Source of the DNA: Humibacter sp. RRB41
Lineage (GTDB): Bacteria > Actinomycetota > Actinomycetes > Actinomycetales > Microbacteriaceae
Reading direction: 5' to 3'
Length of the DNA: 64,000 nucleotides
NCBI RefSeq assembly: GCF_022761015.1
Contig: NZ_JAKWJQ010000001.1
Span: forward strand, 744,001 to 808,000
Each line of letters begins with the position of its first letter. Position 1 is the first letter of the stretch. Both the position numbers and the translations under genes were made by a program. Shown piece after piece: positions 3,338-15,334 of this stretch. Under the pieces are notes generated by a model. The model ran no database searches. It saw only the letters and a list, made by a program, of their open reading frames with translations, and was not told where the DNA came from.

Positions 3338-4012
3338 ATGTCGCCCGCCCGAGGCGTTGCCTTCTTCGATGTCGACGAGACCCTCGTCTCGGTGCGCACG
3401 CTCGAGTCCTTCTTGCTTTATTACCTCAAGCGCGTGCCCTCGATGATCTCCTTCGAGCGGCTCGCAGAGCTCAGGCAGCAGGTCGTGCAGCTGAGTCGGG
3501 CCGAGTTCAATCGGCTCTACTTCCGCATCTGGGCAGGGCAGGCGGAGGCGGACGTGCTCGAGGCCGGCCACGGCTGGTTCGCCGAGGTGTCGGAGCATCC
3601 CGACTTCTATCGCGCGAACGTGCTGCAGCGGCTGCGCGAGCATCAGGATGTCGGCGACCAGGTCGTGCTCGTGTCCGGATCGTTCGGCCCGCCGTTGCGT
3701 CCGCTCGGCGACGCGCTCGGCGTCGACGGCCTGTATTGCACAGAACTCGAGACCCTCGACGGCGTCTACTCCGGAGAGATCGGCGCTGCGATGATCGACG
3801 ACGACAAGCGGCACGCTGTCGACGCCTACCTCACCGGGCTCGCAGACGAGACGGTCAGTTGGGGCTACGGGGACCACCCGAGCGACCTCTCCTTGCTCGA
3901 GCGCGTCGACCATCCGGTGGTCGTCGGATCGGACCCGGCGCTGGGCGCGCTCGCCGCACAGCGCGGCTGGCCGGTGATGCCCATCGACAAGCCGCTGGCA
4001 CCACGCGCCTGA
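3338..4012 (+). CDS. HAD-superfamily hydrolase, subfamily IB (phosphoserine phosphatase-like)
   Basis: A 224-aa soluble phosphatase-type protein. All four HAD motifs are visible: motif I DVDET (Asp11 nucleophile, Asp13 acid/base), motif II Ser113 in LVSGS, motif III Lys157 in DDDKRHA, and motif IV GDHPSD (Asp179, Asp183). A helical cap occupies roughly residues 20-90, which defines subfamily IB together with SerB-like and CicA-like enzymes. Substrate is unknown. AAGGAG lies about 10 nt before the ATG. GBL biosynthesis needs a dephosphorylation step, and an AfsA-like gene sits 5 kb downstream. A link between the two is only speculation. Confidence 0.85.
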   Translation: MSPARGVAFFDVDETLVSVRTLESFLLYYLKRVPSMISFERLAELRQQVVQLSRAEFNRLYFRIWAGQAEADVLEAGHGWFAEVSEHPDFYRANVLQRLREHQDVGDQVVLVSGSFGPPLRPLGDALGVDGLYCTELETLDGVYSGEIGAAMIDDDKRHAVDAYLTGLADETVSWGYGDHPSDLSLLERVDHPVVVGSDPALGALAAQRGWPVMPIDKPLAPRA

Positions 4013-4096: not shown

Positions 4097-4453
4097 ATGC
4101 CATCCATCGCCGCGGCCCTGTACGACCTGCTCAATGAGCGTGACGTTTCGGTAGAGGATGCGCTTGCCAGGCATTTCACCGACGAATACCGGCAGAGCAC
4201 CAACGGCGACTGGATCGATCGCGCTGGTTTCGCCGAGCAGCTGACCCAGTTGCGGCTCTACGTCGACCATGTCGAGATTCGCGTGCTCGACGAGCTGTCG
4301 GACGACGCCTCCTATGCGGAGCGACACATCCTCACTGCGACCCAGCGGGACGGCTCGACGGCCGCCCAGGAGGTGTTCCTCTTCGGGCAGATCGCCGAGG
4401 ACGGTCGGTTCGCGTCCCTGGAAGAGCTCGTGCGGCCGCTCGCCGATTCCTGA
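4097..4453 (+). CDS. NTF2-like/SnoaL-like domain protein
   Basis: A small 118-aa soluble protein. Its pattern of an N-terminal helix (SIAAALYDLLNE), a DALARHFTDEYRQ segment and then alternating beta strands (HVEIRVLDEL, SYAERHILTATQ, EVFLFGQIAEDGRFASLEE) fits the cone-shaped NTF2-like fold used by SnoaL cyclases, ketosteroid-isomerase-like proteins and many uncharacterised proteins. I see no convincing catalytic residues. It is the last plus-strand gene before the divergent receiver/TetR block and ends 24 bp from the convergent receiver gene. Function unknown. Confidence 0.65.
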   Translation: MPSIAAALYDLLNERDVSVEDALARHFTDEYRQSTNGDWIDRAGFAEQLTQLRLYVDHVEIRVLDELSDDASYAERHILTATQRDGSTAAQEVFLFGQIAEDGRFASLEELVRPLADS

Positions 4454-4477
4454 GGCGCGCTGCACCGCGCGCGGTGC

Positions 4478-4861
4478 TCAGACTTCCGGATGCTCGTGCA
4501 GGCGCGCTTCGACAGCCCGTTGCAGATCGCGGGGGCGGAACGGCTTCACCATGAACATGTCGGCTCCGGATTCCAGGCTCTCGGCCTCGTCCCGTTCGGC
4601 GCCGCTCGCGCTCAGCACGACGATGAGGGCGTCGCTGATCGCGCGGATGCGACGCGTCGCCTCGATTCCGTCCATGCCGGGCATCCGGATGTCGATGGTC
4701 ACGACCAAGGGATGACAGCCGCGAACCGCAGCGATGCCGTCTAGTCCGTTCGTCGTAGAGATCACGTCGAAGCCCGCACGCTCGAGCACGGCACGGATGA
4801 GGGACCGGATCCCGTCGTCGTCTTCGATGACGACCGCGTTCCGGCTTGCGGCGCGGCTCAC
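4478..4861 (-). CDS. single-domain response regulator (CheY-like receiver)
   Basis: A 127-aa stand-alone receiver. The acidic cluster EDDD (13-16), phospho-acceptor Asp57 in TIDIRMPG, Ser84 at the switch Ser/Thr position and invariant Lys106 in VKPFRP are all present, so it should be phosphorylatable. It has no output domain. It aligns without gaps with the receiver of the OmpR-type regulator 1 kb away (same Asp57 and Lys106, shared VVIEDDDGIR and KPFRPR), so the two are recent paralogues. It could be a phosphate sink, relay or competitor for the nearby histidine kinase, which is inference. It starts about 200 bp downstream of the TetR gene on the same strand. Confidence 0.93.
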   Translation of the reverse strand: MSRAASRNAVVIEDDDGIRSLIRAVLERAGFDVISTTNGLDGIAAVRGCHPLVVTIDIRMPGMDGIEATRRIRAISDALIVVLSASGAERDEAESLESGADMFMVKPFRPRDLQRAVEARLHEHPEV

Positions 4862-5004
4862 CTCACCCCGGGTTTGATTGCGAACCGCGCTTCGAGTCGC
4901 CGCGATCCGGGCCCGCCCTGTCTCAGTAGGACACGAAGGAAGCCCGACGGTACCCGCAGAGTGTCCACGCGATCGATTCCTTCTCTTCGCCCAAGCCCCG
5001 AAGA

Positions 5005-5038
5005 CAATCTAGACGGTCGTCTCAGGTGGATTGAAGCC
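5005..5038 (-). promoter_or_regulatory. possible promoter with palindromic operator upstream of the receiver gene
   Basis: Read on the minus strand, TAGATT resembles a -10 box and TTCAAT, 18 nt upstream, a weak -35. Between them lies AGACG-AC-CGTCT (plus-strand 5011-5022), a 5-2-5 inverted repeat of the kind TetR-family repressors bind. It sits between the GBL-receptor-like TetR gene and the receiver gene. An operator between -35 and -10 would allow direct repression. The -35 match is poor, so this is a hypothesis. Confidence 0.3.
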
Positions 5039-5063
5039 CCCAACACTGGGGACAGAGTAGTAC

Positions 5064-5696
5064 TCAGTATGCTCCGGATGCAGTCCCGAGTTCAGCCACC
5101 ATCGCCTCACTGCCACTCACGCCGAACGACGGCAGGATGAGGAGCCAATAGCGAGCAACGCGCTCGTGGATGTCGCGAGCGCGGGTGAGCCGATGGGCCA
5201 CCTGCTGGAGCCCGGTGAACGCCTCGACCAGGACCTCGGAAGCCGAGTCGACGTCGAGACCGGGAGGGAACGTAACGGGTGCCTCGGAATCCGCGAGCAA
5301 CGCGCGTACGAGCTGCATCCAGCCCAGGAACGGGGTCGGCAGGTTCACGTCGTGCAGGCCGGCGTCGTGCTGCAGACGGATGCTCGCCCTCACGAGAACG
5401 TCGTCGCGGAACCTTCCGGCGACGACGAACGACATGATGACCACCGCATCCAACCCCGAAAACCCGTCGGCCCGGATCTGGGCGGCGATCGCATCCCAGT
5501 GGCTGAACTGGCTCGTCGCGACCTCATACGCCAGAGACGACTTCGATGAGAAGTGGTACCCGAGGGCGCCCTTTGTTCTGTTCAACCGCGCGGCGATGCT
5601 GGAAAGCGAGGCACCGGCATATCCGACCTCGTCGAACTCTGCGGCGCCCGCTCGCAGGATCTCGTCACGCCGTGCTACGGCCCGTGCTTGTGTCAT
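5064..5696 (-). CDS. TetR-family regulator of the ArpA/ScbR gamma-butyrolactone-receptor type
   Basis: A 210-aa dimeric DNA-binding repressor. The N-terminal HTH (about 8-55) reads QARAVARRDEILRAG..FDEVGYAGASLSSIAARLNRTKGALGYHFSSK, following the ArpA/ScbR pattern (xGYxxxSxxxIxxRxxxTKGALYFHFxSK) with Gly in place of Tyr in GALY. The ligand domain keeps ScbR-like blocks: FRDDVLVRASIRL, LGWMQL, SEVLVEAFTGLQQVAHRLT and ERVARYWLLILPS. Trp126 falls where ArpA and CprB carry the Trp needed for GBL binding. It is divergent from the OmpR-type regulator (130 bp) and 3.5 kb from an AfsA-family gene. By family knowledge it should release DNA on binding a GBL-type signal. It could be a pseudo-receptor responding to another ligand. 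Confidence 0.82.
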   Translation of the reverse strand: MTQARAVARRDEILRAGAAEFDEVGYAGASLSSIAARLNRTKGALGYHFSSKSSLAYEVATSQFSHWDAIAAQIRADGFSGLDAVVIMSFVVAGRFRDDVLVRASIRLQHDAGLHDVNLPTPFLGWMQLVRALLADSEAPVTFPPGLDVDSASEVLVEAFTGLQQVAHRLTRARDIHERVARYWLLILPSFGVSGSEAMVAELGTASGAY

Positions 5697-5790
5697 CGAG
5701 AGCCAGCCTAGGCGTCAGCTCGTTCTGCAGGCGATAGGCGCAGGGGATCCGCTTGCCCGTGTCCTGCTGCGCCACGGAGCCGTGTGCAAA

Positions 5791-5826
5791 GGCGATCCTC
5801 GCCGCGCGATTGCTACGCTTCCGAAC
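5791..5826 (+). promoter_or_regulatory. putative leaderless promoter of the OmpR-type regulator, with small inverted repeat
   Basis: TACGCT (5814-5819) lies 7 nt before the ATG, the spacing expected for a -10 box of a leaderless transcript. No Shine-Dalgarno is visible. Just upstream, GGCGA-TCC-TCGCC (5791-5803) is a perfect small inverted repeat in the -35 region and could be an operator for the divergent TetR regulator. No good -35 is seen. Confidence 0.4.
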
Positions 5827-6633
5827 ATGGGAGCGGTGGAGGGCGACTGCGTGGTCGTGATCGAAGACGACGACGGCATCCGCGAACTGATCGGCACGGT
5901 TCTGGGCCAGCTGGGCCTCGAGGTGATCGCCGTCGCGAACGGTGTTGAGGGTGTCGCTCAGGTCGAGGCACGGCATCCTGTGCTCGTGACGGTGGACGTC
6001 AGCATGCCGGGCATCGATGGATTCGAGACGGCGAAGCGCATTCGGGCGATCAGCAGCGCCTACATCATGATGTTGACGGCACGTGACGAGGAGATCGACG
6101 CCCTTCAGGGGCTCGGTGCGGGCGCCGACGACTATGTGCTGAAGCCGTTCCGCCCCCGTGAGCTGAGGGCGAGGGCCGAGGCGATGCTCCGGCGACCGCG
6201 CAACGTTGAGCGTCCGGCCTCGGTTGCCGTCGGTTCGGCGCCCCCTGGCGTCGTCACCTCCGACGTCGTAGAGGGCACGGATGACGTCGCACCCTCGCGA
6301 CGCGGTGTACTCGAGCACAACGGGGTCGTGCTCGATCCCGACACCCACATCGTCGAGCGCGACGGCGAAGAACTCGACCTCACGCGCAGCGAGTTCGAGC
6401 TGTTGCAAGCACTGCTCCGGTCGGGTCGTACCGTGCGCAGCAAGGACGACCTCGCGCGCCTCTTGCGTGGTGACGGCTACGTGGTCAACCCTTACGTCGG
6501 CGAAGCCGATCGGCGCGGTGTCGAAGTGCACATCGGCAACCTTCGCAAGAAGCTCGCGGATAATGCCGCGGCTCCTTATCTCATCGAAACGGTGCGCGGA
6601 GTCGGATACCGGCTCGCGGCGCGACGGGAATAA
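5827..6633 (+). CDS. OmpR/PhoB-family DNA-binding response regulator
   Basis: A 268-aa transcription factor. The receiver (about 8-122) has EDDD at 13-16, phospho-acceptor Asp57 in VDVSMPG, Thr84 and Lys106 in LKPFRP. A linker of roughly 45 residues follows, longer than usual and rich in Val, Gly and Ser. The winged helix (about 170-266) reads LTRSEFELLQALL, VEVHIGNLRKKL and IETVRGVGYRL. An in-frame opening begins far upstream, but the ATG directly after the TACGCT box gives a normal-length receiver. It precedes the histidine kinase on the same strand (433 bp gap), its likely partner, and shares a divergent region with the GBL-receptor-like TetR gene. Confidence 0.92.
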   Translation: MGAVEGDCVVVIEDDDGIRELIGTVLGQLGLEVIAVANGVEGVAQVEARHPVLVTVDVSMPGIDGFETAKRIRAISSAYIMMLTARDEEIDALQGLGAGADDYVLKPFRPRELRARAEAMLRRPRNVERPASVAVGSAPPGVVTSDVVEGTDDVAPSRRGVLEHNGVVLDPDTHIVERDGEELDLTRSEFELLQALLRSGRTVRSKDDLARLLRGDGYVVNPYVGEADRRGVEVHIGNLRKKLADNAAAPYLIETVRGVGYRLAARRE

Positions 6634-6802
6634 CCGACGGAAAACCGCCCGTGTCGACGGCCGCCGGTACGGGCACCCCCCGTTTTCGGGCCAGGCAAAG
6701 GCTGGTCAGGTTCGTCATTGTGTGGATAACTACAGGTGGGGGCAGTTACCCTGGAGTTCTCCGCACCGCTGTCTTCACGACGTGGTGTGCCGGGAGACCA
6801 CA

Positions 6803-6869
6803 CATTCGGGTTGAGGTATGTCTCGGACTTCAGGGAGAGGGGCGCCTTCATTCGGGTTGAAGGCGCCCC
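6803..6869 (+). terminator. strong GC-rich hairpin with overlapping direct repeat in the regulator-kinase gap
   Basis: GGGGCGCCTTCA (6839-6850) and TGAAGGCGCCCC (6858-6869) form a perfect 12-bp stem with a 7-nt loop, about 205 bp after the response-regulator stop. No T-run follows, so termination would be of the U-tract-less type proposed for actinobacteria. The word CATTCGGGTTGA occurs twice (6803-6814 and 6849-6860), the second copy spanning the loop. Apart from this and a TAGCGT -10-like box at 7039-7044 before the kinase, the 433-bp gap holds nothing I recognise. Confidence 0.5.
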
Positions 6870-7066
6870 ATCAAAGGCCTCCGGGCTGTGGCATAAGCCT
6901 TGGCGTTGCGGCGACATGTACAGTCTGCAATCCAACTCGACGGTTTGAGCGCGGGGATTGCTCAAGAGTCGCTCAGGACGTGCAGAAGGTGAGTCGGAGC
7001 CTCGGCGGTGCACAGCGGACGCCTGCCGCGCGATCATCTAGCGTGGCGTAAAGAGAGGGGTTCGCG

Positions 7067-9073
7067 ATGCCAGAGTCAAGAGACAGCGATGCCGTAGATC
7101 CGCTCAGCGTGGTGGTCTTCGCCGCGAACGCATCCTGCGCGGAGGCGGCACGGGCGGCACTGGACGCGGCCGGTCTCGGCTCCGATGTCGCGACGGTCGA
7201 GGACACCCTCGACGAGAACACGCACCACCCCGTGCTGCTGGTCGCTGCAAACGCTGAGCAGATCGACACCGATCTGCTCGTGTCGGCGGTCGACCGCGAT
7301 TTCGTTCTGATCGACAACGCTGCACGTGAAGTCCCGGCGCGCGTGCGGGTGCTCAGGGAACGAGCATGGCGGAGGCGGTCCCGATTGGCGAACGCCGAGC
7401 AGATGCGCACGGAGACGATGGAGCTCACGTTCGCGGTGCACACGGCAGAGACGATCGACGATCTCGCCGCTGCGGTGACCGAAGGGCTTCGCCGCATGTT
7501 CTCGGCCCACGCCGCCGCCGTGGTGATCCCGGCTGACCCAGAAGCGGCGGGTGACCCGACATCGATCGCCTGGACGGCTGATCACGGCTCTTCGCCGGAA
7601 CTCGCCGAACTGATGGAGTCTTTGGCGACCGCGGAGGCCTTGGACAGATTGCCTGCCCCGGCCGACCTGCACCTGCGGCTGGCGAAGCCCGTCGACGACC
7701 TCTTCCGTGAGCAGAACGCTGAGACCGTCGAGCGGCTGTTCGGCACGGACGCCCGTCACATCATGCTGGTTCCTGTCGAGTTCGACGGCGGTGCCAGGGG
7801 TGCGCTCTTCCTCGCTGACGCCGCCGAGCCCGCGCGCCGGACGGAGTACGAGCGCGGGCTGATGTCGTACGTCGCAATGCAGGTGGGCCGTGCCGCTTCG
7901 GAGCTTTGGCTGCGCGACCGGCAGCAGGCATCCGAAGAGCAACTGCACAAGACATCGGCCGAGCTGCAGCGGCTGGTCGATGAGATGGACGACCTCGGAG
8001 TCGTCATCCGCTCCATCGCCGATGCGGTCAACGTCGGGGTCATCTTCTACGACACCGACAACCAGCCGAAGCTGCACAACCACATGGTCGAACGGCTGCT
8101 CGCCCTCGCCGGTTTCAACGAGGCGACCGGTTTCAGCACGCACGTCTACGGGTCGGACAGGCACACGCGGGTCAAGGAGGGCGTGAACATCGTCTCCGAG
8201 ACCCTCGAAGGCGATCAGCGCGGACTCATCTACTGGATGGGCGATCCCGAAGGCGAGCAACGCGCCGTCGTGACCGAGGCGCACGCCATCAGCAAGCCGA
8301 ACGGAGAACAACTGGGATCGGCGATCGTCACCTACGACGTCACAGACCTGGCGAATGCGATCGAGATCAGGGAGGAATACCTGGCGACCGTCTCGCATGA
8401 ACTGCGTACGCCGTTGACATCCATCGTCGGCTATCTCGATCTCATCGACGACGGTTACGACGTGGAGGCTCTCGGATTCGGCAGGGAGTTCAGGACCATC
8501 CAACGCAGCGCCGAGCAGATGCTCGGCCTGATTCGCGACCTGTTGAGCACGAGCACCCGCGATCTCTCGCTGCGCATCGAGCCCGTCGACCTCTCTGCAC
8601 TCCTCGCGCAGTCGGTTTCGACGTTCCGGCCGACATTGGAGGCGGCTCACCAGACGCTGCAGTTGGAGACCCCGAAGGCGACGGTTCTCGCGCATCTCGA
8701 CGCCGGACGGGTCAGGCAGGTCGTCGACAACCTGATTTCGAACGCGACGAAGTACACCGATGAAGGCGGAGTGATCACCGTCGGGCTGAAGCCCGACGCC
8801 GACACGGTCGTGATCACCGTTGCTGACAACGGCTCGGGCATCAGCAAGCCGGATCAGGCTCGCCTCTTCGACCGGTTCTTCAGAACGAGGGATGCTCGCG
8901 AGGCGGCGATCCAAGGTGTGGGAATCGGCCTGACGATCGTGCGGACGATCGTCGACGCCCACGGCGGCACGATCTCGGTCGACAGTGAACCCGGACGCGG
9001 ATCCACCTTCACGGTGCGGCTCCCGATGCGCGCCGAAGCGAGCCCCCTTCCGACGCTTCCGCTCCAACCATGA
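7067..9073 (+). CDS. soluble GAF/PAS sensor histidine kinase
   Basis: A 668-aa kinase with no membrane segment, so it senses something in the cytoplasm. An N-terminal ~100-residue alpha/beta region resembles a receiver-like fold without a clear phospho-acceptor. It is followed by a GAF-like domain (about 118-280), a short coiled coil (about 283-310) and a PAS-like domain (about 312-425). The HisKA block EYLATVSHELRTPLTSIVGYLDLI carries phospho-accepting His444. The ATPase domain shows N-box DNLISNATKYT, G1 VADNGSGI, F-box LFDRFFR and G2 GVGIGLTIVRTI. GAGAGGGG precedes the ATG, with a TAGCGT -10-like box about 23 nt upstream. Likely partners are the OmpR-type regulator and perhaps the lone receiver. 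The AfsA-like gene follows 159 bp later. Confidence 0.92.
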   Translation: MPESRDSDAVDPLSVVVFAANASCAEAARAALDAAGLGSDVATVEDTLDENTHHPVLLVAANAEQIDTDLLVSAVDRDFVLIDNAAREVPARVRVLRERAWRRRSRLANAEQMRTETMELTFAVHTAETIDDLAAAVTEGLRRMFSAHAAAVVIPADPEAAGDPTSIAWTADHGSSPELAELMESLATAEALDRLPAPADLHLRLAKPVDDLFREQNAETVERLFGTDARHIMLVPVEFDGGARGALFLADAAEPARRTEYERGLMSYVAMQVGRAASELWLRDRQQASEEQLHKTSAELQRLVDEMDDLGVVIRSIADAVNVGVIFYDTDNQPKLHNHMVERLLALAGFNEATGFSTHVYGSDRHTRVKEGVNIVSETLEGDQRGLIYWMGDPEGEQRAVVTEAHAISKPNGEQLGSAIVTYDVTDLANAIEIREEYLATVSHELRTPLTSIVGYLDLIDDGYDVEALGFGREFRTIQRSAEQMLGLIRDLLSTSTRDLSLRIEPVDLSALLAQSVSTFRPTLEAAHQTLQLETPKATVLAHLDAGRVRQVVDNLISNATKYTDEGGVITVGLKPDADTVVITVADNGSGISKPDQARLFDRFFRTRDAREAAIQGVGIGLTIVRTIVDAHGGTISVDSEPGRGSTFTVRLPMRAEASPLPTLPLQP

Positions 9074-9232
9074 CACGTGCCGACGAGCCCGAAGCTCGGA
9101 GGGTATTCGGGTACGCGGACGCGCTATTAGTGTTGAACCACCTCGCTCGGCCTCACCCGAAGCGGCCGGGGAGTTGCCTGATCGCTGCGCGGTTCGGGGC
9201 AGCTCCGTGGATGCGAGCGGAACAAGCCGAAG

Positions 9233-10078
9233 GTGCGTCACTTGGCTCTCATTGACAACAGCGCCGCTCATCGTTCCACTCGATCCGAGTCGCTGGTCTG
9301 GGCGATCGGGCGGGCATCAGAGGGTTCGGAGGGCAGCAAGGGACAGACCTGGTACGCCGACGTCGAGATACCCCGCAGTCACTGGCTCTGCCACCCCGTG
9401 CCCGACGTCGTACCGGTCACGCTGCTGGCGGAGGCGTTCCGTCAGGCCGGTCTTGCGATCTGCGTCGCCGGACTCGGCATGGGGCAGTCGGTGCACTTCG
9501 TCGTCTCGACGATGACCGTTCAGGTGGAGACGACGTCCCTGCATTTCCCGCGATTCGGCGCCCTCGAAGAACGGCTGGAGGTGACGTTCGCCGACATCGG
9601 GTTCCGAAAGGGAGTACCGCACATCCTCAACGTCGACTACGTGCTCCCCGGGCTCGCGTCCGGCCACGTGGATGCCCGCATTCTTACCGACCGCGACTAT
9701 CGGGTGCTCCGGCGCAACGCGCTGCCGCTCGACGACGAGATCCGCGAGCCGGCCACCGAGCTCATCGACGTGGTAGAACGTGATGGCGATCACCTGACGG
9801 CGCGATTGGGTGTGAACGAGTCCGATCCCTTCTTCTTCGACCACCCGGTCGATCACCTGCCCGGGATGCTCCTGTTCCATTCGGCCGCGCGCATCCACGA
9901 GAACGAATACGGGGTTCAGCCGCGCTTCCTCACGATCGAGTTCCCGGCATTCGGAGAGTTCCGGGTGGAGACGAACGTCCAGGCTCATTTCACCGGTGCG
10001 GGCTTGAACGCCACGTTCCTGCAGAACGGCCGCACGATCGCCACGGCGGTCACGGGCACGCGCCCGGTCGGCGAGTAG
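9233..10078 (+). CDS. AfsA-family protein (gamma-butyrolactone signal synthase-like)
   Basis: A 281-aa protein with the two hotdog repeats of the A-factor biosynthesis family. The first repeat has PVTLLAEAFRQAGLAI (61-76), matching the family's LLAExxRQA block. The second has FFDHPVDHLPGMLL (201-214), the hallmark DHPxDHxPGM sequence. AfsA homologues condense a beta-ketoacyl-ACP with dihydroxyacetone phosphate, the committing step to GBL autoregulators. The GTG start gives normal family length (about 280-310); no clear Shine-Dalgarno is visible and TTG three codons later is an alternative. No BprA-like reductase is adjacent. With the ArpA/ScbR-like repressor 3.5 kb upstream it suggests a signal synthesis and response pair. 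Product chemistry cannot be read from sequence. Confidence 0.85.
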   Translation: MRHLALIDNSAAHRSTRSESLVWAIGRASEGSEGSKGQTWYADVEIPRSHWLCHPVPDVVPVTLLAEAFRQAGLAICVAGLGMGQSVHFVVSTMTVQVETTSLHFPRFGALEERLEVTFADIGFRKGVPHILNVDYVLPGLASGHVDARILTDRDYRVLRRNALPLDDEIREPATELIDVVERDGDHLTARLGVNESDPFFFDHPVDHLPGMLLFHSAARIHENEYGVQPRFLTIEFPAFGEFRVETNVQAHFTGAGLNATFLQNGRTIATAVTGTRPVGE

Positions 10079-10466
10079 TTCTCTCGTCGAATGAGGATGC
10101 TGCCACAGGCGGGCGGTGCCGGGCCCGTCCAGATCTCGCTTTGAAGCGGTGACAGGCCCAGCACCAAACCACACGTCCGGACAGATGTCCGTTCGGGCTT
10201 AGACGCTTCCATCGGGTTGGATACGCCTGTTTTGGGGGGTTGAGGACTCCGCGAAAATCGCGGCAACTGTCATGCTGCCAGCGCTCCCGACACCGAATCC
10301 GCGGGATAGCCTCAAGATTCGCTCAAGTCGAATGCAGGGTCAGCCGAGCCCGCGTCGAGAAGCTCGGGCACGGCGACGTGACGGGGTTCGCTCGGCGACG
10401 GTCCCGCCCGCACCGCACTCATGGGACCACCGTGAGAGGCTCGAACGACACGACGATGACGAGGGG
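10079..10466. other. 388-bp intergenic region with a small hairpin
   Basis: I see no gene. CCGCGA-AAA-TCGCGG (10249-10263) is a perfect 6-bp hairpin. Further upstream GGAC-AGAT-GTCC (10189-10200) forms a short inverted repeat within CCGGACAGATGTCCG-type sequence. Either might be an operator or a weak terminator for the AfsA-like gene. An upstream in-frame extension of the next gene covers part of this region but is Arg-rich and unlikely to be translated. Confidence 0.35.
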
Positions 10467-12023
10467 ATGCCCGTGACGGCGAATTCCGAGGACACCAGCG
10501 AGCTGAACGCCACCGGCGTGTGGCGGATGAGCACGGCGGAGGCCGAGGGGGTCGATCCGGCAGGCATCCGGTCGCTGATCGAGGAGTTCGACACCGACGA
10601 GACACAGGATCCGCACGCGATCGTGATCGTGCGGCACGGCGCCGTGATCGCCTCGGCGGAGTGGGCGCCGTACGCGATACGTCGCCCGCAACTGCTCTAT
10701 TCGCTGAGCAAGAGTTTCACCAGCTCGGCCGCCGGTTTCGCCGTCGCGGAAGGTCTCCTCGATCTCGACACCCCCGCCGCCGACTACTTTCCCGAGTACG
10801 CAGACAGCGTCGCCGACGCGAGTCGCGGCATCCTGGTGCGGCACCTTGCGTCGATGGCGACCGGCCACCTGAACGACATGTTTCCGGCATTCGAGGCTGA
10901 CCCGCAGCATCCGATTCGCGCCTTCTTCTCGATGCCGCCCGAGCGCGAGCCGGGCACGGTGTTCACCTACAACCAGTTGGCCACGTACACACTGGGAGCG
11001 ATCATCCAGCGCCGCTCGGGCCAGCGGTTGAGCGAGTACCTGCTGCCGAGGCTGCTCGAGCCGCTCGGCATCTCACCGATCGGCTGGCAGCAGCAGCCCG
11101 CGGATGTCGAACTCGGCTTCTCGGGGCTCTTCGCCCCGGCAGAGGCGGTCGCAAAACTCGGCCAGCTCTATCTCAACCGCGGCGTTTGGAACGGCGAGCG
11201 ACTCTTGTCGGAGGAGTGGGTGCGTGAAGCGACCAGTGCGCAGGTCGCGAACGCCGCACCCGGTGGCCTCACCGCTGCTTCTTCTGACTGGGAGCAGGGT
11301 TACGGCTTCCAGTTCTGGATGTCGCGCCACGGCTTCCGCGGCGACGGCGCGTTCGGCCAGTACTGCCTTGTGCTGCCGGAACACGACGCCGTCGTGGCGA
11401 TCACCTCGCAGACCATCGACATGCAGGATGCCCTGAACCGCGTCTGGAAGCACCTGCTGCCGGCGTTCGGCTCGGTGCCGTTGCGGCCTCAGGGAGGTGG
11501 CGACCTGCACGACGTCGTGCGTGAGATCGGCTTCCCGACGTTGCCCGAATCACTGGACGACCTCGCCCCGGATGCCGCAGGCGAGTATGGGCGAGCGGAC
11601 GATGCCGAGTCCGTCGGCGAGTTCGAGGCGCTCGCCGCGGCGACGCTCGAGCGCGACGGTGGGTCGGTTGGGTCGGCTGTGTCATGGCGTCTGACGCTGA
11701 ACGAGGGCGGCCCAGGCGCTGCCGCCGTCGGGGCGCCAGGCGGCACCGCGGGCGGAATCGTCGGAGGCGGCGAGTGGGTGACGACCGAAGCGGATGCCTC
11801 TGGAAGCCTCCGCGTGCCGGTCGCGCTGCGGGGCGGCGTCCTGTCGGACGGAACGGTGCGCGTCGACGTGGCGTTCGTCGACACTCCCCACCGGCTCACG
11901 TTGACGTTCGACCCCGCGTCGCACACGGTGACGCCGCGCTGGCGCTCGCGGCCGTTGCGCCTGGTGAGCATGCGGGAACTGCGCGCGGTGCGACCGGGGG
12001 AGACGATCGCAATCCAGGAGTGA
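10467..12023 (+). CDS. serine hydrolase of the class C beta-lactamase/esterase family
   Basis: A 518-aa protein. The beta-lactamase-like domain (about 25-340) shows the SxxK motif as SLSK (Ser79 nucleophile, Lys82), the second-motif Tyr168 in FTYNQ and a GFRGDGAFGQ segment at the third-motif position. No signal peptide or membrane anchor is visible, so it appears cytoplasmic, favouring an esterase/amidase role over antibiotic resistance. The remaining ~150 residues form a separate beta-rich C-terminal domain with a Gly/Ala-rich insert. GAGGGG overlaps the chosen ATG; a GTG two codons later would sit at ideal spacing. Substrate unknown. It follows the AfsA-like gene but is probably a separate unit. 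Confidence 0.85.
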   Translation: MPVTANSEDTSELNATGVWRMSTAEAEGVDPAGIRSLIEEFDTDETQDPHAIVIVRHGAVIASAEWAPYAIRRPQLLYSLSKSFTSSAAGFAVAEGLLDLDTPAADYFPEYADSVADASRGILVRHLASMATGHLNDMFPAFEADPQHPIRAFFSMPPEREPGTVFTYNQLATYTLGAIIQRRSGQRLSEYLLPRLLEPLGISPIGWQQQPADVELGFSGLFAPAEAVAKLGQLYLNRGVWNGERLLSEEWVREATSAQVANAAPGGLTAASSDWEQGYGFQFWMSRHGFRGDGAFGQYCLVLPEHDAVVAITSQTIDMQDALNRVWKHLLPAFGSVPLRPQGGGDLHDVVREIGFPTLPESLDDLAPDAAGEYGRADDAESVGEFEALAAATLERDGGSVGSAVSWRLTLNEGGPGAAAVGAPGGTAGGIVGGGEWVTTEADASGSLRVPVALRGGVLSDGTVRVDVAFVDTPHRLTLTFDPASHTVTPRWRSRPLRLVSMRELRAVRPGETIAIQE

Positions 12024-12851: not shown

Positions 12852-14072
12852 ATGTCACGGGTGCTGATCGTCGGAGCAGGAATCGGTGGAGACGCGCTCG
12901 CGCTCATGCTGGACCGCGCCGGATGGGACGTCACGGTCGTCGAGATCGCGCCGGAACTGCGAGCAGGCGGTCAGACCGTCGACCTGCGTGGTGACAGTCG
13001 GGAGGTGCTGAACAGGCTCGGCCTCCTCGATGAGTGTCTCCTGCACCTCGTGGACCAGCGCGGGCTCGCCTGGATCGATGAGAGCGGAGAGCGCCGGGCG
13101 GCGATGCCGGTCGAGGCATTCGGCGGACAGGGATTCGTCTCGTCGGAGGAGCTGCTGCGCACCGACCTGGCCCGGATCATCCACGCGGCGTCCGGTCCGC
13201 GTACCGAGCACCGCTTCGACGACACCGTCGCACAGCTCACCGAGAATGCGCACGGCGTGCATGTCACGTTCCGTCGTCACGAGTCCGAGACGTTCGACCT
13301 CGTTGTCGGCGCCGACGGCACGCACTCGCGGGTGCGGTCGCTGGCGTTCGGTCCGGAGAGCGACTTCAGGCATCCGCTCGGTCTCGCCCACGCGTGGTTC
13401 ACGCTGCGTGAGACGGCGACGACACCGAGCGTCGAAGGCTGGTCGCTGATGTGCAACGCGGTGGGCGCGCGGGTGATCGGGGCGAGGCCGGGGCATCCTG
13501 GCGAGCAGGAGGTCGGACTGACGTTCCCCGCCGACACGCTTCCCTCACGCAAGGATGCCGAGGCGCGGTTCGCGTTGTTGGAACGAGTCTTCGCCGACAC
13601 CGGATGGCGCACGCGCGAATTCCTCGATGCCTCACGCTCGGCCGCCGACTTCGCTCTCGACACCTACGATCAGATCCACGTGGACCGGTGGCACCGCGGA
13701 CGAGTGGTGCTCCTCGGCGACAGCGCCTGGTGTGCGAGTCCGCTCAGCGGCCTCGGCACGGCGCTCGCCCTCCAGGGAGCGGAGTCCCTCGCTGCGGCGC
13801 TCGACGGCGCGGTCCCCGACGATCTCGAGCAGGCTCTGGATGCCTACGAGCGCGAGATGCGCCCGCGCACCACGGCGGCTCAGAAGATGTACCCGGGCCG
13901 CGTGCGCTCCTACGCCCCGCGCACCCGCCGCGGCATCGCCACGATGAGGTTCGTCATGCGCGTGCTGCAGACCCGCCCCATCGCCGCGCTGATCACACGT
14001 GCGGTCGCAGACTACGGGCGCGCGCCCGCTGCGATCGAGAGCGACGCCGCGTTGCTGCAGACGACACGCTGA
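12852..14072 (+). CDS. FAD-dependent monooxygenase (PHBH/TetX-like)
   Basis: A 406-aa group A flavin monooxygenase. The N-terminal dinucleotide motif is GAGIGG (8-13), followed by the family's DG motif in VGADGTHSRVR and the FAD-ribityl GD motif in VVLLGDSAWCASPLSGLGTALALQGA. The overall pattern is closest to TetX/aromatic hydroxylase-like proteins, which use NAD(P)H and O2 to hydroxylate small aromatic or polyketide substrates. GGGAGG lies 6 nt before the chosen ATG; a longer open frame extends upstream through the operator region and was rejected. The divergent TetR gene suggests substrate induction, perhaps for detoxification. Confidence 0.92.
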   Translation: MSRVLIVGAGIGGDALALMLDRAGWDVTVVEIAPELRAGGQTVDLRGDSREVLNRLGLLDECLLHLVDQRGLAWIDESGERRAAMPVEAFGGQGFVSSEELLRTDLARIIHAASGPRTEHRFDDTVAQLTENAHGVHVTFRRHESETFDLVVGADGTHSRVRSLAFGPESDFRHPLGLAHAWFTLRETATTPSVEGWSLMCNAVGARVIGARPGHPGEQEVGLTFPADTLPSRKDAEARFALLERVFADTGWRTREFLDASRSAADFALDTYDQIHVDRWHRGRVVLLGDSAWCASPLSGLGTALALQGAESLAAALDGAVPDDLEQALDAYEREMRPRTTAAQKMYPGRVRSYAPRTRRGIATMRFVMRVLQTRPIAALITRAVADYGRAPAAIESDAALLQTTR

Positions 14073-14116
14073 CCCGGGGCTGCGCTCGCTCAGGGAGCTG
14101 GGGGACGCCGCCCACC

Positions 14117-15334
14117 TCACCCGACGATCGGCACGTGCTCCTCGTCGGGCGGGCGCAGTCCGCCGTCGGACGAACGTTGGCGCAGCGCCAGCGCGATGGC
14201 GGGGAACAGCAGCACCGACAGCATCCCTGCGCCGACCAGCGCGCTGGCGGTGCCCTGCGTGATGTCGTGCTGTTCGAGCCCGATGTTGGTGACCGCGACG
14301 ATGATCGGCAGGCCCGTCGCTGAGAACAGTGTGAGTGCTGTGCGGTCGCGGGCGGTCGATCCTGGCGGGATGGCGAGCATCCCCGGCACCCCGCGAACGA
14401 TGAGCAGCATCAGCACGAAGATCGGCAGCAGGATGAGCGACCGGGAGTCCGCCAACAGGCCGCGCAGGTCGAAGTTGACGCCCGTCGCGATGAAGAAGAT
14501 CGGCACGACGAAGCCGAATGCGACGGCTTCGAGCTTGCCCTCGATCTGCTTCGCGTCGCCGGGGCGCGCGCCGGACAGCAGCACCCTGGCGAGCACTCCT
14601 GCTGCGAAGGCCCCGAGCAGCATGTCGAGGCCGAGAGCGAGGCTCAACCCGACGAGCGCGGCGATGATCGCGATCACGAAGCGCACGGCGAACTGTCCGC
14701 TGGTGTGCAACGTCGCGCGAATCAGACGATGGAACCGGTCGTGCGTTCCCCTGGACGCGAGCCAGATGCCGAGCACCGTGATGACGACGAAGCCTGCGAG
14801 CACGAGTGCCGCCGACAGCGGGGTGCGTCCGGAGAGGAAGAGGGCGATCGCGACCAGCGGACCGAACTCCCCGACCGCGCCGACCGCGGTGACCGCGATT
14901 CCGAACGGCGTCTTGAGCTCGCCGGCGTCGCGCAGCAGCGGCATGAGCGTTCCGAGTGCGGTCGAGCACAGCGCGATCCCCACATAGACACCGGCGATCG
15001 GGCTCGGAGCGAGCAGGATGCCCAACCCGATGCCGACGATCAGCGAGATCAGCCATCCGAGAGAGGCTCGGCCCAGCGGCCTGCCCCTGATCGTCGCGAA
15101 ATCGATCTCGTTGCCCGCCATGAAGAACAGGAACGCGAGGCCGAAGTTGGAGATCATGTCGAGCGCATCGGACTTCGCCACCCAACCCAGCACGCTCGGT
15201 CCGATCAGGATGCCCAGGATGATCTCGAAGACCACCAGCGGAATCTTGGCCACGCGACCGACGAGCGTCGAGAGGATCGGCGCAACGACGGCGAGGGCGG
15301 GAATCAGCACGATCGAACCGATGGACGCATCCAT
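14117..15334 (-). CDS. Kef/CPA2-type cation:proton antiporter membrane protein
   Basis: A 405-aa integral membrane protein with about 11-13 hydrophobic segments and no cytosolic nucleotide-binding domain. The N-terminal half shows the Na_H_Exchanger pattern (LVVFEIILGILIGPSVLGWV, FGLAFLFFMAGNEIDF). A later helix holds ALGLDMLLGAFAAGVLAR, where CPA2 members carry acidic transport residues. Expected role is K+ or Na+/H+ exchange and pH homeostasis. The start MDASIGSIVLIPALA was chosen because upstream codons are Arg-rich and unlike a membrane protein. It ends 44 bp from the convergent monooxygenase, in a gap holding a half copy of a dispersed repeat (14082-14104). Confidence 0.9.
   Translation of the reverse strand: MDASIGSIVLIPALAVVAPILSTLVGRVAKIPLVVFEIILGILIGPSVLGWVAKSDALDMISNFGLAFLFFMAGNEIDFATIRGRPLGRASLGWLISLIVGIGLGILLAPSPIAGVYVGIALCSTALGTLMPLLRDAGELKTPFGIAVTAVGAVGEFGPLVAIALFLSGRTPLSAALVLAGFVVITVLGIWLASRGTHDRFHRLIRATLHTSGQFAVRFVIAIIAALVGLSLALGLDMLLGAFAAGVLARVLLSGARPGDAKQIEGKLEAVAFGFVVPIFFIATGVNFDLRGLLADSRSLILLPIFVLMLLIVRGVPGMLAIPPGSTARDRTALTLFSATGLPIIVAVTNIGLEQHDITQGTASALVGAGMLSVLLFPAIALALRQRSSDGGLRPPDEEHVPIVG

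Follow-up and report, generated by a model that had tools for sequence, protein, structure and literature searches.

The window analysed here, a stretch of 64,000 nucleotides from Humibacter sp. RRB41 (Microbacteriaceae), carries a block of signalling genes in which an AfsA-family gene and the gene of an ScbR-family TetR repressor stand together with a two-component system and a lone receiver. From its sequence and its conservation, this block probably represents a pair of the AfsA/ScbR type, its synthase divergent, whose link to a phosphorelay is a decoy receiver. The mechanism that we favour, at a probability of roughly one half, is that a lactone-type product would lift the repression exerted by TetR on the decoy receiver and would in this way retune a kinase-OmpR pathway that may itself control the kinase and afsA genes. 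Searches with Pfam and NCBIfam profiles recovered all five genes that a first-pass annotation had placed in the region. These are a single-domain response regulator, or lone receiver (4478-4861, minus strand; PF00072, Response_reg, 84 bits), the TetR repressor and putative lactone receptor (5064-5696, minus strand), an OmpR-family response regulator (5827-6633, plus strand; PF00072 and PF00486, with an open frame of 5170-6633 and a likely start at 5827), a sensor kinase (7067-9073, plus strand) and an AfsA-family protein with a double-hotdog fold, from a divergent branch (9233-10078, plus strand).

The features of ArpA and ScbR that had been claimed for the TetR protein, including a Trp in the ligand region, were borne out. 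The protein scores 166.1 bits on the curated ScbR equivalog NF041196 (cut-off 150), and in a scan of the genome with the ScbR model it was the only match over the cut-off, at 165.9 bits, the runner-up reaching 59.7. The five TetR proteins of this kind, counting the one in the window, all pass (166, 173, 166, 157 and 180 bits; range 156.9-179.8), and all five share an FTG stretch and Trp126, which aligns with a Trp of AvaR1. The closest solved sequence is 6srn_A (E 3.2e-31), and the nearest ones also include AvaR1, a butyrolactone receptor and CprB; 6srn, a TetR regulator, we take to be MmfR. In the recognition helix the module proteins read GA[LM][GS]YHF, as opposed to GALY[FH]HF in three canonical rows, and a changed operator is therefore to be expected.

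Comparison of the DNA between the receiver and TetR genes revealed one conserved palindrome beside a -10-like hexamer on the strand of the receiver gene. In the window this candidate operator, CTAGACGNNCGTCT (5009-5022, no strand assigned), overlaps the -10-like TAGATT (5011-5006, minus strand) of the lone-receiver gene. The form AGACGNNCGTCTAG[AG][TG]T is present in all five genomes, and the overlap of the palindrome with the hexamer TAG[AG][TG]T is kept while the flanks have diverged. The palindrome lies between the two genes, and in G057 it falls inside an over-long reading frame of the receiver. Over whole genomes, CTAGACGNNCGTCT occurs exactly once in each of G000 (the genome of the window), G001 (Humibacter albus), G004, G057 and G126, always at the lone-receiver promoter, and it is absent from G002 and G003, both of which are without the TetR gene. 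AGACG-N2-CGTCT was the sole palindrome with five-base arms (spacer 0-8) common to all five regions, and none of 2000 dinucleotide-shuffled sets shared any such palindrome, in a control that ignores shared ancestry and in which the G057 region (L064) was extended into the over-long receiver frame, favouring detection; the genome-wide counts are independent of this extension. These results suggest that TetR very likely controls the lone receiver, by repressing it.

The DNA at 4862-5826, put forward in the first-pass annotation for a binding assay with TetR, does hold the candidate operator, at the promoter of the receiver and not of afsA. Autoregulation of TetR and repression of afsA were rejected, as the tetR-ompR and kinase-afsA gaps contain no copy of CTAGACGNNCGTCT with up to one mismatch. 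Operator-like copies do occur in the coding DNA of afsA (window 9969, one mismatch; L057 of G004 14217, core exact), at positions unmatched in other genomes. The sequence of the palindrome presumably differs from the canonical ARE operator.

Related receptors were also found outside the block. On another contig of G003 (C5; L060, 3245-6878) there is an orphan ScbR-type TetR, a more distant paralogue scoring 181 bits, 39% identical and sharing the recognition-helix stretch GALGYHF. In favour of the operator assignment, the same core stands there at the centre of 24 bases (by eye) that form a perfect palindrome 5' of the neighbouring frame 6342-6878 (plus strand), whose product looks secreted, and a copy of the operator with one mismatch lies 5' of the frame 4248-5228 (minus strand). 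The ScbR paralogue of G004 (L061) has the helix GALSYHF.

By sequence comparison the lone receiver is a paralogue of the receiver of the OmpR-type regulator, 60 of 127 aligned residues (47%) being identical in the window and 60-69 of 125-128 across the five genomes. The acceptor Asp and the Lys are retained in all five, which rules out a broken gene. The first helix of receivers governs the choice of partner; in the lone receivers it reads EDD[DE][GS]IR.L[IV]..[VI]L and in the OmpR proteins it is nearly alike, which suggests that both are served by a shared kinase. The lone receiver could accordingly be a decoy for that kinase, a role we find plausible without quite favouring it. Perhaps the signal is made and sensed and the receiver acts positively instead, by binding another protein or by passing its phosphate on. 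Several modes of action have been published for single-domain receivers (PMC5964349, PMC12802240). The conserved genes of the block, however, include no visible phosphotransfer protein, and the likeness to the OmpR receiver suggests a shared kinase; we regard a positive role as quite improbable.

In the kinase, HisKA, HATPase and GAF domains exceeded their cut-offs, PAS_4 remained below its own, and the stretch SHELRTPL is identical in three aligned kinases. A HisKA and HATPase kinase thus stands beside a regulator with a receiver and a DNA-binding domain, as is expected of a two-component system. The order of parts is a small N-terminal alpha/beta domain, GAF, a PAS-like region, HisKA and HATPase. 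No membrane segment was apparent from the domain searches and the model, no dedicated predictor having been run. The N-terminal domain (window 7067-7330, residues ~10-85) resembles a shortened receiver in a low-confidence model; the model of the whole kinase is poor (pLDDT 51.6) and its first 85 residues were used as a hint alone.

A direct repeat, CTCAAGA-N4-CTCARGA, precedes the kinase gene by 88 bases (6961-6978, plus strand, reading CTCAAGA-N4-CTCAGGA in the window), and a second copy, with one mismatch to CTCAAGANNNNCTCARGA, lies 3' of afsA (10311-10328, plus strand). From its form, place and conservation we consider this repeat a candidate binding site for OmpR. The stricter pattern CTCAAGANNNNCTCARG occurs twice in G000 and twice in G001, in each case at the locus, three times in G003, two of them at the locus, and once each in G057 and G126, at the locus; the reversed pattern gave one hit in G000 and none in the other six genomes. 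The copies in G004 (L057) carry one and two mismatches. After afsA, copies with one mismatch are found in G001 (L058) and G003 (L042) and copies with two in G004 and G126 (L067), and there is none after afsA in G057. In L042 and L067 the reading frame of the kinase is over-long, and the repeat before the kinase falls within this frame or straddles its start. Upstream of the OmpR gene, TTGCTACGCTT is conserved in L057, L058, L064, L067 and L042, and a -10-like TACGCT ends 7 bases 5' of the OmpR ATG, so near to it as to suggest a leaderless OmpR mRNA.

The first-pass annotation had proposed comparing the neighbourhood in related genomes, and this comparison gave clear support. The conserved block extends past the five genes and also includes, on the far side of the receiver, a gene for a HAD-IB family phosphatase-like protein (3338-4012, plus strand; PF12710 99.7 bits, TIGR01490 over cut-off) and a gene for a 118-aa protein (4097-4453, plus strand; in the block in L057, L058, L042 and L067), for which there were zero Pfam matches over cut-off and zero NCBIfam matches at E <= 0.1. 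The order HAD, 118 aa, receiver and TetR, then OmpR, kinase and AfsA, recurs in G001, G004 and G126. In G057 the part from receiver to AfsA is kept and the HAD orthologue sits on another contig, and in G003 the HAD, 118-aa, OmpR, kinase and AfsA genes are kept and the receiver and TetR genes are both missing. A HAD orthologue was found at E <= 1e-86 in all six module genomes. In G002, the last of the five genus genomes compared, there were zero matches to PF03756, to the kinase at E <= 1e-100, to HAD at E <= 1e-10 and to the RNA element described below at E <= 0.01. The block is thus a signalling module inherited as a unit in Humibacter and in one sister genus; related genomes being non-independent, counts across them are given without a P value.

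A pair of AfsA and TetR genes had been called unusual for this kind of genome. It is rare, PF03756 being present in 20 of 398 sampled Microbacteriaceae genomes and 11 of 85 genera, but it is not unheard of, as 12 of the 14 stretches fetched from non-module genomes with PF03756 contain a TetR gene related to that of the window (>60 bits). Those 12 stretches hold zero relatives of the module kinase. Kinase orthologues, defined by E <= 1e-100 only, were found in 6 of the 398 family genomes, exactly the six with the module type of AfsA; in the sample of the order the figure is 2 of 396 at E <= 1e-10, one being the window's own genome. The kinase gene is followed directly by the AfsA gene in all six genomes, with a gap of 11 bases in G057. 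The proposal that the signal is integrated with a phosphorelay is supported, in that a joining of the two systems is likely.

An alternative is that the sensor of the AfsA product is the kinase, by way of a GAF or PAS domain, with the TetR-receiver pair as an optional side arm. Besides the adjacency of the two genes, the absence of TetR and receiver from G003 favours this. From the place of G003 in the AfsA tree that absence would be a joint loss, which fits one working unit, and the survival there of the kinase and AfsA genes suggests a second route for the AfsA product, perhaps via the kinase, so that TetR need not be its sole receiver. A kinase without an apparent membrane segment would, moreover, have a cytoplasmic ligand. 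On the other hand, AfsA genes of the same branch (L062, L055, L076) adjoin an ScbR-type TetR gene without any relative of the module kinase, and we know of no GAF or PAS kinase that acts as a butyrolactone receptor. We therefore think it rather unlikely that the kinase is the principal sensor, and retain the lifting of TetR repression from a decoy receiver as the preferred explanation.

The AfsA-like protein belongs to its family, with 50.2 bits in two stretches on PF03756 (gathering cut-off 24), of which it is the sole match in its genome. Its predicted structure is a double hotdog (mean pLDDT 64.7, the first 57 residues poor), and among the best 50 rows of the comparison with solved chains were TesB, hydratase-2 and FatA (Z 13.2-15.0, rmsd 3.0-4.5 A), mostly with 180-200 residues aligned. 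The assignment made at first reading thus stands for the family; membership among the canonical butyrolactone synthases is not supported. In a tree of 50 rows the six module proteins form one clade (support 100/100), and a split supported at 100/99 separates 13 rows, the module six with L062, L075, L083, L055, L066, L069 and L076, from a group of 37 with all 24 canonical rows. The exact position of some rows is unsure in view of a long-branch warning that includes L062, L083 and L012. The canonical rows comprise 21 proteins of the phylum sample over the NF041195 cut-off and three annotated ScbA/BarX proteins on plasmids. Seven permuted homologues (L008-L011, L013-L015), L110, L113, L070 (internal stop), one of the L078 AfsA genes (divided between two frames) and G253 (which yielded no full-length protein) were left out; L056 was taken in though cut short, and long reading frames were trimmed to the domain.

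The domain-1 Glu is present in every row of the motif table and the RQ in all rows except L063. The domain-2 Glu, in contrast, is shared by all 24 canonical rows and by 36 of the 37 members of the group that contains them (the exception being L012), and by none of the 13 of the module-containing group, where its position is occupied by His in the six module proteins, Asp in L062 and L075, Gln in four and Arg in L083. Hsiao et al. 2007 reportedly found that ScbA needs its C-terminal Glu. All six module proteins retain the domain-1 Glu, Arg and Gln and the DH..DH.PG of domain 2. In the seven permuted homologues, from Streptomyces, Streptacidiphilus, Actinoplanes and Pseudomonas, the halves come in reverse order; DPFFFDHP..H.P and E..RQ are retained and the position of the domain-2 Glu holds Cys in four, Asp in two and Glu in L010. 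That these homologues keep the motifs, six of seven without the domain-2 Glu, fits a single composite active site, which we infer would be built from the Glu, Arg and Gln of one half and the DH..DH.PG of the other. Composite active sites of such a kind occur in other double-hotdog enzymes.

Could the AfsA-like protein have lost its synthase activity, leaving an ordinary two-component system beside a TetR that answers some other cytoplasmic acyl compound? The replacement of the domain-2 Glu by His in 6 of 6 module proteins and a score of 82.1 bits on the ScbA/BarX equivalog NF041195, below the cut-off of 200, would be consistent with such a loss. One refuting outcome named in the first-pass annotation, an AfsA-like protein outside the GBL synthases and short of catalytic residues, is to that extent partly realised. 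Yet the remaining motifs are intact in all six, the predicted fold is still a double hotdog, and the Glu is missing as well from the ScbR-partnered AfsA genes L062, L055 and L076 and from most permuted homologues. We consider the loss of activity distinctly unlikely, and the module protein may be active as an enzyme. A pseudogene was ruled out, as the frame is open with 65-78% identity within the genus.

Two observations were made on AfsA genes elsewhere. In L075 (G263 contig C19, 1438-3043) an AfsA gene from the branch of the module has its end overlapped by a HAD phosphatase-like frame, and a second HAD match lies near the other AfsA gene of that genome. L078 (G344) has two AfsA-TetR pairs about 7 kb apart, at 6237-7754 and 13658-15164; the AfsA gene of one pair is the one divided between two frames, as mentioned above.

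The course of events that we propose for the module is as follows. An AfsA-like domain is described as coupling 3-keto thioesters to dihydroxyacetone phosphate (PMC7756379), and the enzyme of the module would likewise join a beta-keto acyl chain to dihydroxyacetone phosphate, giving a butenolide or lactone. The HAD protein, a candidate for removing phosphate from the AfsA-type product, would perhaps dephosphorylate it. Accumulated product would then remove TetR from the operator at the receiver promoter, the lone receiver would be produced, and its draw on the kinase, as decoy or phosphate sink, would lower the phosphorylation of OmpR. A change in OmpR would alter transcription of the kinase-afsA pair and close a feedback loop. 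The layout of the genes is what we observe directly; the signs of the connections and the nature of the ligand are inferred. We lean slightly towards the step in which AfsA supplies the module TetR with a lactone-type ligand. A fuller version, in which the decoy receiver is the only target of the lactone receptor, the threshold for phosphorylation in a kinase-OmpR pathway is set by the diffusible signal, that pathway in turn governs the synthase gene of the signal, and a new structured RNA belongs to the module, is put forward tentatively and with some doubt. In the boldest form the kinase would be a further, direct reader of the lactone, and a single signal would have two receivers.

Several results weigh against this mechanism. 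From base composition, about 0.5 copies of the exact operator pattern would be expected in each genome (an estimate), and the reversed control pattern gives 1 to 3 hits per genome, so that the evidence for the operator lies in its position and recurrence and not in its count. The core AGACGNNCGTCT also occurs within afsA of G004 (L057 14219), the paralogue L061 has no exact operator copy in its 19.9-kb stretch, and there are zero operator-like palindromes at the afsA promoter. Autoregulated butyrolactone loci differ in this respect, having an operator at the afsA promoter. The lone receiver of G057 matches that of the window at 57 of 127 residues and the OmpR protein of its own genome at 65 of 128, and is about as near to OmpR as to the other lone receivers. 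For the direct repeat, the assignment to OmpR was made by conservation and form, and CTCAAGANNNNCTCARG has no strict match in G004, nor any in G002, genome-wide. The position of the AfsA-like protein outside the canonical branch, its low equivalog score and its missing C-terminal Glu make the word "butyrolactone", as used in the first-pass annotation, a guess; the protein may make something else, or nothing. In G003, finally, the product cannot act solely through the module TetR, unless the paralogue on the other contig serves.

A structured RNA element, RNA1 (6751-6873, plus strand), is located between the OmpR and kinase genes in all six module genomes. It consists of conserved hairpins, the last two of which carry UCGGGU in or near the loop. 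In the last hairpin, of 12 pairs, 72 of 72 cells are paired, with covarying changes on both sides at 4 of the 12 pairs, and over 20 pairs counted 97.5% are paired, compared with 42-59% in slid controls. A -10-like TA[CTG][CT]CT precedes the element in all six (by eye). The covariance model was built from the six sequences and finds them at E <= 1.4e-15 by construction; in the other 353 of 359 genomes it gave no strong match and three weak ones (E 6e-4 to 2e-3), weak matches being lost under stricter filters. A known family was excluded by Rfam 15, none of whose models matched 6600-7100 at E values up to 1, and an ANTAR-type double hairpin by loops that do not begin with A. The minus strand was rejected because on it the last hairpin has 3 broken cells, whereas on the plus strand it has none. 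A second hairpin region, RNA2, lies 3' of afsA (window ~10100-10330; L057 15042-15152; L058 11062-11182), with TCGGGT and GGGTTGAGG stretches. It folds slightly better on the minus strand (-55.0) than on the plus (-48.6), and is followed by the second OmpR-like direct repeat regardless of the next gene. In the window that gene is beta-lactamase-like (10272-12023); its true start is probably near 10467, 3' of the repeat, because the relative L006 has nothing that corresponds to the first 37 residues.

The best-known role of butyrolactone receptors is the switching of antibiotic genes. If our reading is true, a lactone receptor is tied to a single phosphoryl-accepting protein, and a diffusible signal is linked to the dosage of a phosphorelay. 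The candidate operator being short and single, this central claim is testable with one protein and one 60-bp DNA, and the block is present in a cultured bacterium, Humibacter albus, which is not known as a pathogen. Further products of the locus are a conserved RNA that matches no known family and an AfsA branch of divergent type. For Leifsonia and Clavibacter a review, in the excerpt available, gives evidence of LuxR-type systems alone (PMC4748050). Among the matches listed in our literature search, which covered few subscription journals, no report dealt with AfsA in Microbacteriaceae, and none with a receiver under the control of a butyrolactone receptor.

Like the AfsA/ArpA and ScbA/ScbR systems of Streptomyces, the module combines an AfsA-family enzyme and an ScbR-family TetR in one locus, with a Trp in the ligand region. 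It differs from them in an AfsA that belongs to a divergent branch and lacks the domain-2 Glu, in a candidate operator at a receiver gene and not at afsA or an antibiotic activator, in the recognition helix of its TetR, and in the kinase and OmpR genes within the block. The MmfL/MmfR system of methylenomycin furan signalling is close through 6srn, presumed to be MmfR and the nearest solved relative of the TetR, and the kinase pathway in the block again marks the difference. Outside Streptomyces, GblA and GblR of Rhodococcus jostii RHA1 form an AfsA and TetR pair, GblA being 37-41% identical to AfsA, ScbA and JadW1 (PMC5735094); the available part of that report names no two-component genes, whereas a kinase and an OmpR regulator are present here. 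A parallel to the proposed decoy is given by phosphate-sink two-component systems (PMC4214558), in that a second receiver drawing on one kinase would set a threshold. In the Humibacter module, unlike in those systems, the gene of the sink would be under the control of a lactone receptor.

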